The notes below the pieces were generated by a model that searched no databases, had not been told where the DNA came from, and was given only the letters and a program-made list of their open reading frames with translations. Below are positions 881-8,566 of a stretch of DNA of 47,775 bases, piece after piece. The stretch comes from an uncultured bacterium (lineage in GTDB: Bacteria > Auribacterota > Erginobacteria > Erginobacterales > Erginobacteraceae), in assembly GCA_937885075.1 (NCBI GenBank), contig CAKZYZ010000354.1, positions 1-47,775 of the forward strand. The letters are read 5' to 3'. The translations under genes and the position numbers were made by a program. Each line of letters opens with the position of its first letter. The stretch's first letter is position 1.

Positions 881-1179
881 ATGCCGGAGGTGTCATCGCC
901 GGCAACAATATAATGTGTTGATAATGAGTTATTTTTTCCTATGAGTTATTGCCCGATAATTCGAGAGAGCGTTCCACTCTGCCGGATCTTTTCTAAATGG
1001 CGGCTTCCGAAACGTCCTCCGCCAAGCATAACTGCTAAATGAGCAGTTGAAAGGCAGCGCGGACTTTTGGAACTTTTCTGTTGATTCGCAAGTATTTATT
1101 ACTCAAGTTCTATCCAGTTTCGAAAGTCAGGGGAGTATTTAATTAAATAGAATCGTGGCAAAAATTGGAGAAGAAAGTT
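881..1179. other. Intergenic leader upstream of the methyltransferase
   Basis: About 300 bases hold no gene. Two small hairpins are visible: a GCCGG/CCGGC stem at 883-903, and AACTGCT with its complement at about 1029-1047. I looked for a cobalamin riboswitch because the downstream gene belongs to a corrinoid-dependent family, but I could not find a convincing B12 box. A promoter must lie here because the preceding gene ends in a terminator, but no clear -35/-10 pair stands out. Confidence 0.4.
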
Positions 1180-2559
1180 ATGGCTTCATTGGAAAAATTA
1201 GCGTTAATGCTTCAGCGGGCTAAAGACGGTAAACCCTGTACTCTTAGAGAATGGGAGATAGTGGTTTTACCTCAATCGGTAAAAAAGATCCTTAAAAAGT
1301 TTGATTTAGAGCAGACCTTTAATAAAGACGAACCGGTCAACCAGGATATGGAACTGGCCGACCGGTTTTTTCAGGCCGGACTGGAATTAGCAACAGAGAT
1401 CGGTCTGATGTGTCCCGATACCGAATCCACCATCCAGCTCAGCCGGGAGGAGATCCTGGAAGGGGTGGAAGCCGCCCCCGATCACCTGACCCTCGGGGAA
1501 GGCAACGATCGGATCACCATCCATGCTCGCCGGATCGAGGATCCGATCCCGCCGGTTCTGGGAGGGCCTCTGGCCATCCAGGTTTCGGAAGAACTCTATG
1601 TCCCGATTGCCGCCGGTATTTTGAAGAGCCGGAAGGTCCGGGTCCAGCAAGGTCCGTCGATTGACCGGGTCTTTGATCTCCCCGTTTATTCCGGCACTCC
1701 CTTTGAGACCATCGTCGCCTTCCGGGAGAACCGTCTCCGGGAAGAAGCCCAGTGGCGGGCCGGTCGTCCCGGGATCCCCAACATCACGATCGCTTCCAGC
1801 ACCACCGAGTTCGGCAATCTGGGCGGTTTCGCCGGATCGACCCGGCCTGACAATCCGGCCATAGCGGTTATCCTCCACCCGGCCGAGCTGAAGATCTGTT
1901 ACGCCAGTTTTCACAAGGCCGCCGCGGCGATCGGATACGGGGGCTACATCTTCTCCGGCACTAACTCGATGATCGGCGGTTACACCGGAGGAGCTGAAGG
2001 CGCGACCGTGGGAAATATCGCGACCGTGTTGCTCCAGTTCCCGGTCATGCAGGCGGATATGTCGAACTCGTCACTCTATGATGTTCGGATGGACTCGGTC
2101 TGCGGGAGGCATGGCCTCTGGGCGCTGAGCATGGCCAATCAGGCGATCAGCAACAATACTCACCTCCTTGACCACAAAGTCATCAATCAGTCCGCCGGTC
2201 CCTGCACCGAGGAGATCCTCTATACCACCGCGGCCGGCCTGATCGCGTCCGGGGTATCCGGGATGGAATTCAACCTCGGTCCCCGCTCCGCCGGGGGACG
2301 GTTCAAGAATTACCTCTCCCCGTTGGAGCACTGGTTCTCGGGTGAGGTCTTTGAAGCCAGCGCCAAACTATCCTTATCCCAGGCCAACGAATTGATCCTT
2401 TATCTGCTCAGTAAATATGAGGATACCCTGAAAGATCCTCCGAAAGGCCAGAGCTTTACCGAGTGCTTTGACATAAAAACTCTGACCCCGACCAAGGAAT
2501 GGCAGAAAATTTATGACCGGGTTAAAGATGACCTGACGGCGCACGGGATGGAGTTTTAG
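1180..2559 (+). CDS. MtmB-type methylamine:corrinoid methyltransferase homologue lacking pyrrolysine
   Basis: The 459-residue protein resembles archaeal monomethylamine methyltransferase MtmB (458 residues) along its whole length, as I recall that sequence. Matching stretches include the N-terminal RAKDGKPCTLREWE, the central GRPG, GGYTGGAEG, the SAGPCTEE motif and the C-terminal FTECFDIKTLTPT. MtmB carries pyrrolysine, encoded by an in-frame TAG, at residue 202 just after GRPG. Counting from the start chosen here, the same column is Ile202 and the frame has no amber codon. I chose ATG 1180 over the TTG at 1165 because GGAGAAG sits 7-13 bases upstream. The known family transfers a methyl group from an amine to a corrinoid protein. 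Without pyrrolysine the substrate may be a quaternary amine or another N-methyl compound, as in MtgB-type relatives of MttB. No corrinoid protein is seen in the window. Family membership is firm; substrate unknown. Confidence 0.85.
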   Translation: MASLEKLALMLQRAKDGKPCTLREWEIVVLPQSVKKILKKFDLEQTFNKDEPVNQDMELADRFFQAGLELATEIGLMCPDTESTIQLSREEILEGVEAAPDHLTLGEGNDRITIHARRIEDPIPPVLGGPLAIQVSEELYVPIAAGILKSRKVRVQQGPSIDRVFDLPVYSGTPFETIVAFRENRLREEAQWRAGRPGIPNITIASSTTEFGNLGGFAGSTRPDNPAIAVILHPAELKICYASFHKAAAAIGYGGYIFSGTNSMIGGYTGGAEGATVGNIATVLLQFPVMQADMSNSSLYDVRMDSVCGRHGLWALSMANQAISNNTHLLDHKVINQSAGPCTEEILYTTAAGLIASGVSGMEFNLGPRSAGGRFKNYLSPLEHWFSGEVFEASAKLSLSQANELILYLLSKYEDTLKDPPKGQSFTECFDIKTLTPTKEWQKIYDRVKDDLTAHGMEF

Positions 2560-6074: not shown

Positions 6075-7748
6075 ATGACTCTTCAGTACCTTGGACAAAA
6101 TCTTTCCCGGCCTGACGCGTTTGACAAAATAACCGGGGCGGCCACTTATCTTGATGATATCCGCCTTCCCGGTCTTCTTCATATGGCGGTTCTCCTCCCT
6201 GAAGACGCGCACGCGATAATCCGTTCAATCGATGTAACCGAGGCTGAAAGGTCTCCGGGGGTAGTACAGGTGGTTATCGGACGTGATTGCCCATCCCGTC
6301 ATGGGATCGATTTTCGGGACCGGCGGCCGCTGGCGGTCGATCGGGTTCGCCACGTCGGTGAACCGGTGGCGGCGGTTATCGCTGAAGATGTCCGTCAGGC
6401 CCGTCTCGCCGTCCATAAGATCCGGGTTGAGTATGAGCAGTTACCGGTTTACACCGATGGACGCGCGGCCATGGCGGGTGGAGCTATCTTGATTCATCCG
6501 GAGACCGACCCGGAAGAGTATCCCGCCAGCTGGAATCATCTTCCCGGGACCAATATTGTCAATCATCAGGTACTGAAGAAGGGGAACCTCGATCAGGGGG
6601 TTGCCGATTCCGATATTACTGTCGAAGGTGAATTTAATTATCCGTTTTCCGTCCCCGGAGCGATTGAACCGCATGGAGCGATTGTCTGGTTTAAAGGGAA
6701 TGGGATAATTGAGGCGTGGCTCTCCTGTATCCGTCCCTTCATGGTAAGAAAAATGCTGGCTGAGATTTACCATCGGCCGGTAAGCTCCGTCCGGGTACAC
6801 GTCCCGGAGGTGGGAGGATGTTTCGGGGATAAATCCGGAACTCACTTTGTCTTTACGGTGGCCGCGGCGGCCAGCCGTATCCCCGGCCGGCCGGTTAAAT
6901 GGTTTGCTACCCGCAAAGAATCTTTTCTCTGCGGTTCGATCGGAAATGGGATCAGAACTCGTCTGAAGATCGGCGCTGATTCCAGAGGAAATCTCACCTT
7001 CTTTAAAGGAGTCGTCCATCACTCGGTAGGGGCATATTCTGACATAGGGAGCGGTGTGATGACAGCCGCCCTGGCGAATATCACGGGCCCGTATGAGGTT
7101 CCCAATTACCAACTGGAAGGATCTTGTGTCTATACCAATACGCCCCCGGTCGGGGCACTCCGCGGCTTCGGCAACCAGTCGGCCTTTTTCGCCACGGAAA
7201 GGCTGATGGATATGCTGGCAAAAAAATTGAAGATGAATCCGGTCCGCTTGCGGGAGATAAATCTTCCGCGAGCCGGTCAGGGGAATCATCCCGGTGACCT
7301 GGGGGATGTTGGTGGATGTGTAAGTATCGTTGCCGAGAAACTTTATCCCCGACCCAAGCCGGTTGAGGATGAATTGTATTTTTACGGGCGCGGTTTTTCC
7401 GTTCTTAGAAAAACCCCCGGTCCGACCGGATTCTACGGCCGGAGCTGTTATCTGAAATTCAATGGAGATGGATCCGTAACTTTAAATTTCGGAACAGTGG
7501 ATATGGGAGGGGGGCATCGCAATGCCATGCGCCAGATCGCGGCGGAAACGCTGCGGATCTCTCCGGAGAGGATTACGGTCTCCTCCGATATCGATACCCA
7601 GACATCTCCCTGGGAGTGGCAGACAGTGGGCTCGCTTTCGGTTTTACTCTGCGGGCAGGCGGTGGTCGAGGCCGCCGGGAAGGCGATTGAACTATTGAAA
7701 GAGACCGCCGCCCGGGTTCTTGGATGTCCATCGGGCCAGCTTAGCTAG
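6075..7748 (+). pseudogene. Second molybdenum hydroxylase large subunit, N-terminal part of an interrupted gene
   Basis: The 557 residues form the first three quarters of a xanthine dehydrogenase-type large subunit. GGCFGDK (247-253) replaces the usual GGxFGGK and is followed by Ser where bovine xanthine oxidase has Glu802. RGFGNQ replaces RGFGGPQ, so the substrate should differ from that of the gene at 2859. The frame ends at a TAG made by the junction of the target duplication and an inserted palindromic element. Joining ...GQLS to YDGEQVFKTSDP in the downstream fragment gives an uninterrupted 769-residue protein, a normal family length. The truncated product lacks the C-terminal region with the catalytic glutamate and should be inactive by itself. 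Confidence 0.85.
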
Positions 7749-7929
7749 ACCTTACTCGAAAAGCCTTTTAAACCACGAAGAACACGAAGTTCACGAAGGA
7801 ATTTGAAGAAACAAAGGAAAATTCCATAGTTTTCTTTGTTTTTCTTCGTGTTCTTCGTGACCTTCGTGGTGAATATTTAGTTTTTTAGCACAGAATGTTA
7901 AAAATACCTTTTCGAGTACGGCCTAGCTA
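7742..7929. mobile_element. MITE-like palindromic insertion with 6-bp target duplication
   Basis: TAGCTA occurs at 7742-7747 and again at 7924-7929. Between the copies lie 176 bp with imperfect terminal inverted repeats sharing CC-N-TACTCGAAAAG (left end at 7748, right end at 7923). The interior is a long hairpin: three CACGAAG words at 7772-7799 pair with three CTTCGTG words at 7843-7870, and an inner AAACAAAG/CTTTGTTT stem closes it. No transposase is encoded, so this is a non-autonomous element. Excising the element and one TAGCTA restores codons CTT AGC TAC GAT GGT in frame. Confidence 0.9.
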
Positions 7930-8566
7930 CGATGGTGAACAGGTCTTCAAAACGTCCGATCCCGCGGTTCGGGTTCCAGTCGCCGGTCTGGCGCACGGTT
8001 TTCGCGATGAGTCGGGAAGGACGATCGGTGGTGAGATCCAGACCACATCAAATGTACATCTGGATAACCGGTTCCTCCCCGGTCGGGACGGAGGAGGACA
8101 GTTTGAATCAGTCTTTATCTATGGCGCCCAGGGGTGTGAACTGCGGATCCATAAGGAGACCGGGCGCGTAATCATCGATCACTTTATCTCGTCTTTTGAT
8201 GTGGGCCGGGTTATCAATCCCCAACAGATCCGGGGGCAGGTAACCGGCGGCGTGATGATGGCGCTTGGCGCGGCGTTGAACGAAGAACTGAAATTTGATC
8301 GACTGGGAAGACCCCTCAATCCATCCTTCGGCCGGTATCGCTTGCCGACTATCTCCGACGCGCCGCTCAGGCAGACGATTGAGTTTGTGGAGACCCCGTT
8401 AGAGATCGGCCCTTTCGGAGCCCGTCCGATCGGAGAGGGGACGGTGGTGGGAGTAACCCCGGCGATTCTGAACGCTATCGCCGACGCGACCGGAATCCAG
8501 TTCTACGATCTCCCGGTCACCCCCGACCGGATCAAGGCGGCCTTGAAAAATGCATCGGGATTTTGA
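7895..8566 (+). pseudogene. Second molybdenum hydroxylase large subunit, C-terminal part of the interrupted gene
   Basis: From about base 7930 the frame continues the hydroxylase (YDGEQVFKTSDPAVRVPVAG...). It includes GRVIIDHFISSFDVGRVINP, typical of the C-terminal Mo-binding half, and GPFGARPIGEG with the conserved active-site glutamate. The first eleven residues from ATG 7895 are encoded by the inserted element and its target duplication, and that ATG has no ribosome binding site. It could at most yield a fragment without the pterin loop. The alternative of two separate subunits is unlikely because the break falls at a target duplication and not at a domain border. Confidence 0.85.

Follow-up and report, generated by a model that had tools for sequence, protein, structure and literature searches.

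A MITE with a preferred 6-bp palindromic target splits a molybdenum hydroxylase gene in an uncultured bacterium of the Erginobacteraceae

A molybdenum hydroxylase gene of an uncultured bacterium (Auribacterota, Erginobacteraceae) is split by a 176-bp non-autonomous element (MITE) flanked by direct copies of TAGCTA. The best explanation overall, to which we assign a probability of about 0.9, is that an element devoid of genes inserted at a 6-bp target, splitting the gene, and was most likely moved by a transposase supplied in trans. The window, i.e. the whole stretch of 47,775 nucleotides that was analysed, corresponds to contig C354 of a draft genome of 4.41 Mb in 434 contigs. The features of the locus are the following.

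6075..7747, plus strand: 5' part (557 codons) of the gene for a molybdopterin-binding subunit of xanthine dehydrogenase/aldehyde oxidase type (ORF 6075-7748; Pfam)
7742..7747, no strand: target site duplication TAGCTA, left copy (same-length duplications of other sequence flank other copies)
7748..7923, no strand: non-autonomous element (MITE), 176 bp (genome family, alignment of 15 copies, composition, frames)
7748..7763, plus strand: left terminal inverted repeat (TIR), GACCTTACTCGAAAAG, short-arm end (sequence comparison of ends)
7774..7798, plus strand: three CACGAAG units with 9-bp spacing, left arm of the inner palindrome (sequence)
7844..7868, minus strand: three CACGAAG units (as CTTCGTG), right arm of the inner palindrome (sequence and hairpin fold)
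7908..7923, minus strand: right TIR, GGCCGTACTCGAAAAG on the minus strand, long-arm end (sequence comparison of ends)
7924..7929, no strand: target site duplication TAGCTA, right copy (sequence)
7930..8566, plus strand: 3' part of the molybdopterin-binding subunit gene (remainder of MoCoBD_2; collinear with uninterrupted homologues)

The two TAGCTA copies lie exactly where an earlier note on this DNA had placed them, and precisely 176 bp separate them. The shared terminal repeat reported in the same note, TACTCGAAAAG, is indeed perfect, but it is the inner portion of a longer TIR: the ends GACCTTACTCGAAAAG and GGCCGTACTCGAAAAG, the latter on the opposite strand, span 16 bp and are identical at 14 positions. 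The interior is made of CACGAAG units spaced by 9 bp and arranged in inverted arrays, and the whole 188 bp can fold into one long hairpin, the DNA folding energy being -46.8 kcal/mol vs -16.8 +/- 3.3 kcal/mol for shuffled sequences (z = -9.2). The element has a GC content of 36%, vs 50% in the window; its longest open stretch amounts to 43 codons, and no transposase gene lies inside. Searching the window against Rfam gave no matches. Bacterial MITEs are recognized as short sequences (<500 bp) without a transposase gene, ending in TIRs and flanked by a target site duplication of constant length; here this duplication is of 6 bp around 11 copies and differs by locus. They are also multicopy, AT-rich and able to form a stem-loop, and 52 distinct ends of the window type have been identified in the genome.

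The element interrupts the MoCoBD_2 domain mid-way. Pfam recognizes Ald_Xan_dh_C, MoCoBD_1 and the start of MoCoBD_2 in the 5' part (6075-7748), which ends at a stop codon created by the insertion directly after AGC. Positions 7895-7929 form with the 3' part an ORF of 223 codons, the ATG of which, at 7895, falls within the element; the 3' part could be readable from this ATG, as a frame rather than as evidence of translation. Removal of the element and of one TAGCTA restores, as the earlier note had predicted, an open frame of 769 residues that reads ...QLSYDGEQ... across the junction. The restored protein aligns gaplessly at the junction with nine of 11 uninterrupted homologues from the same phylum, with an identity of about 52-60% on either side (RLD-YDGD in one homologue, QLS-YDGE in the restored protein); in the remaining two (L065, L072) the choice of the longest ORF had taken the wrong frame. 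The relatives compared belong to other genera and are about 53% identical. No residue is missing at the join, and the gene is otherwise undamaged. An intact paralogue, 775 codons long and 52% identical, resides on C5. The earlier note had also allowed that relatives might carry the interrupted structure as two long-separated genes; in the same-phylum relatives checked, the gene is single and unbroken. Joining the flanks of other intact copies of the element yielded no long, convincing gene-spanning frame, the window copy being the only exception.

The same data bear on the possibility that the interruption is an assembly chimera, in which unrelated contigs were joined through a repeat and the gene is not truly interrupted. 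At least 26 contig ends fall in copies of the family, with overlaps near 127 bp, and some contig ends extend into Illumina adapter sequence. However, the flanks are the complementary parts of a single gene, and against nine homologues they join in frame without the loss of any residue, which makes a chimera very unlikely; they also bear a 6-bp duplication of the type seen throughout the family, not to be expected of a random join. Adapter sequence has been assembled beside element copies onto the ends of four contigs (C86, C124, C367 and C372; loci L038, L016, L090 and L079), and these adapter-bearing ends are an assembly artefact. The element family accounts for part of the fragmentation of this assembly.

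Exact 6-bp duplications flank 11 copies in the genome, and their sequence varies from copy to copy: TAGCTA, AAGCTA, TGGCTA, TATCTA, AAGCTA, TAGGTA, TAGTTA, GAGCTA and TAACTA (the last at L010), plus TAGCTA and AAGCTA around two diverged copies. Inexact duplications, with 5/6 (L008), 4/6 (L011 and L085) and 3/6 (L086) matching positions, fit older copies, as expected. At 58 of 62 distinct ends the adjacent 6-mer departs from the palindrome TAGCTA by one mismatch at most, and the base preference observed over the 62 ends spans exactly positions -6 to -1, with none further out. The 6-mers vary by copy yet are always TAGCTA-like, and therefore TAGCTA is a true target duplication at a preferred palindromic site. 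The clean 6-bp duplication of the earlier note is thus borne out, and the preference for a palindrome is an addition of the present work. TAGCTA might instead be a fixed end of the element: it is palindromic, nearly constant over copies, and, if counted in, makes the inverted repeat 22 bp long instead of 16 bp. Its near-constancy had hinted at this, but a fixed end should not differ between copies and should appear as an inverted repeat, whereas the 6-mers (among them AAGCTA, TATCTA, TAGGTA, TAGTTA, TGGCTA, GAGCTA and TAACTA) co-vary on both sides as direct repeats; the idea was dropped, and has very little left in its favor. Least probable of all is a REP-like or IS200/IS605-type hairpin moved in single-stranded form by a Y1 tyrosine transposase (RAYT), a notion in line with the long palindrome, the mostly intergenic location of the copies and the 18 Y1_Tnp matches found in the genome (e.g. 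L203-L214), but IS200/IS605 elements have neither TIRs nor target duplications, and the 176-bp element, as many other copies here, has both. All three alternatives are at odds with the duplications and with the restored gene.

The insertion of a MITE is not a chance resemblance, because the 188-bp query matches at least 40 places of the genome (155 first-look candidates were obtained, 40 of which were scored). The search for element ends proposed in the earlier note has uncovered a multicopy family: over the loci collected, 62 distinct outer ends comprise 27 short-arm ends, 25 long-arm ends, three ends of a longer element and seven others. The 52 ends of the window type correspond to about 27-41 copies, 27 if all long-arm ends pair with short-arm ends, 41 if only the 11 full-length copies do. 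In an alignment of 15 copies, four, at four loci, are identical (100%), and three more are 98.9-99.4% alike. The remaining aligned copies are 62-94% alike, and represent older subfamilies or copies carrying inserts. The MITE-like nature and the recent movement asserted in the earlier note are supported by the four identical copies, by the exact, locus-specific duplications and by a gene otherwise undamaged; from its sequence, the window element appears to have moved recently. Searches of plasmids and phages for similar DNA found none; in viral contigs the TIR pattern gave one match, apparently within coding sequence and without a partner end. Palindromes of about 30-32 bp at L077, L088, L089 and L092 consist of two abutting TIRs without the core. 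The second TIR of L088 is degenerate, and L092 is flanked by the near-duplicate AGGCTA/AGGCTC. At L091-L095 a TIR variant ending in GCTTACTCGAAAAG was found at single ends, which suggests a related, second type of element.

Three contigs (C72, C162 and C377) carry GACCTTACTCGAAAAGGTAA, with the same TIR followed by GGTAA; next comes an ORF starting with MKACAAHHNLPPYTLVGN, which in two of the contigs stays open over 60 codons or more. The target half-sites are TAGATA, TAGCTG and CAGCTA. These are left ends only: all three run to contig ends, two of them at the identical base of the element, and the shared break point is as expected if the repeated inner part had been assembled separately and left unbinned. 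The longer element, which lies outside the window and has the same TIR and target preference, is the likely parent of the MITE, and we infer from the shared ends and preference that its ORF may encode the transposase that moves the MITE. The earlier note had suggested searching the genome for a transposase with matching terminal repeats: the same TIR precedes a truncated ORF in three contigs, and this ORF matched no transposase family. Its first 60 residues have no Pfam match above the cut-off and no NCBIfam match, nor did the collections searched contain a true relative; matches to a ComM-like protein (G062), a TetR-like regulator (a Treponema MAG) and a Mg-chelatase-like protein (a Sinorhizobium replicon) were judged false. 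DDE_Tnp_1 matches on C339, C63, C171 and C155 were considered as the parent and rejected, no TACTCGAAAA end being present in the fetched flanks.

In the mechanism proposed, the transposase would most likely be supplied in trans by the longer element having the same 16-bp ends and target preference, and would cut at the outer GACC/GGCC ends. The cut ends would be joined to a target opened with a 6-bp stagger, and the inner CACGAAG palindrome would be passenger DNA between the two ends.

The earlier note had taken the element as support for the view that CACGAAG repeats, usually seen as static and intergenic, are mobile. The genome contains 345 occurrences of the pattern CACGAAGNNCACGAAG, whereas its reversed control has 0. 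The sequence fetched from this genome (0.59 Mb) holds 38 palindromes, of which six keep both TIRs intact and 32 do not. Of these 32, 17 have a TIR-like 16-mer, matching at 10 or more of its 16 positions, at the distance typical of intact copies (8-12 or 38-42 bp); when the positions were displaced as a control, the rate was 4.5% (Fisher p = 6e-12). The proportion is inflated by contigs partly picked for TIR or hairpin matches; in the subset picked for the absence of a near-perfect TIR pair, six of 15 keep a decayed TIR, well above 4.5%. Many static palindromes of this genome hence look like decayed elements, others bearing no trace. The view is upheld in part for the genome under study, but elsewhere CACGAAG palindromes are mostly without TIRs. 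In three CACGAAG-rich genomes of the phylum (G010, G018 and G025) the exact TIR pattern was not found, and at 31 palindromes on contigs of a viral collection TIRs were not above background. In another family of the phylum, one element of genome G031 combines both TIRs with a CACGAAG core and is flanked on each side by TAATTA. TIR pairs devoid of such a core are present at L089 and L092, and at L106 in another genome (G004). Because the TIRs are also found on their own, and most CACGAAG palindromes elsewhere have no such TIRs, the TIR pair is best regarded as the mobile unit, with the CACGAAG core as its passenger in this lineage. One genome displays a gradation from intact mobile elements to worn, end-less palindromes, which makes it testable how one widespread class of intergenic repeats arose.

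A 27-bp hairpin, TACCCCTCAAGGGGGTATTGAAAAGAA, has been identified at 15 places of the genome (L187-L201), all inside CACGAAG palindromes and in about 13 contexts.

27-bp hairpin, first eight loci: C61:24881; C98:6, 3861; C126:5967; C187:9001; C205:18537; C213:1277; C246:3304
27-bp hairpin, remaining loci: C305:36295; C357:1768; C413:4694; C427:7567, 7603, 7686; C434:6

The hairpin sits between CTTCG and TG of the CTTCGTG unit (CTTCG^TG), with the exception of the variant C305 copy; at the C246 copy CTTTG replaces CTTCG. Its orientation relative to the unit is always the same, and the outermost unit is never occupied. No copy turned up in 43 further genomes of the phylum and, by the listed coordinates, none of the 18 Y1_Tnp matches (REP-associated or IS200-type) adjoins a copy. 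The hairpin has the look of a second-order insert that is specific for this site; alternatively, recombination may have spread a variant repeat unit of 36 bp. It is tempting, though rather improbable, to regard the intergenic CACGAAG palindromes present in many bacteria as a reused platform, carried by TIR elements in this lineage, decaying to static repeats, and serving as the sole landing site of the 27-bp hairpin.

MITEs of comparable type have been described. Chunjie of Geobacter uraniireducens, 178-235 bp long, has TIRs and direct repeats, and a review counts one copy within an operon, 37 intergenic copies and 57 partial ones, some lacking TIRs or repeats (PMC10969869). As described there, Chunjie and the window family are similar in size, in having TIRs and direct repeats, and in being mostly intergenic with one disrupting copy (PMC10969869). 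MITEAba12 of Acinetobacter, 113 bp long, has split hns, its parent is ISAba12, and its transposition has been seen in the laboratory (PMC6382973). It resembles the window element in being non-autonomous and gene-splitting, with ends and duplication length common to a resident insertion sequence, but differs in its 9-bp duplications without identifiable sequence preference and in its known parent (PMC6382973). BrickBuilt of Porphyromonas gingivalis likewise has an interior built from short repeat units; these are 23-nt tandem repeats, accompanied by IS5-like ends and irregular duplications (PMC4596501), whereas in the window element CACGAAG units spaced by 9 bp form inverted arrays, and the duplications are regularly of 6 bp. 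MITEs that split genes and have the ends of a resident IS (PMC6382973), MITEs made of short repeats (PMC4596501) and mostly intergenic families with one disrupting copy (PMC10969869) are therefore already known. A literature search for the repeat sequence found no related report. The window element is a MITE, apparently of a new family, and has an unusually strict 6-bp palindromic target. Less ordinary are the 27-bp hairpin, which resides only inside CACGAAG palindromes, and the decay series that connects the family with these palindromes. For a CACGAAG-based family, the window provides a fully delimited, apparently recent insertion, with its duplication, target rule and identical sister copies.

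Elsewhere in the window, positions 1165-2559 (plus strand) encode a full-length homologue of the monomethylamine methyltransferase MtmB with no in-frame stop. An ordinary residue is aligned to the X (pyrrolysine) of the MtmB structure 1l2q, and the product looks like a non-pyrrolysine MtmB-like protein.
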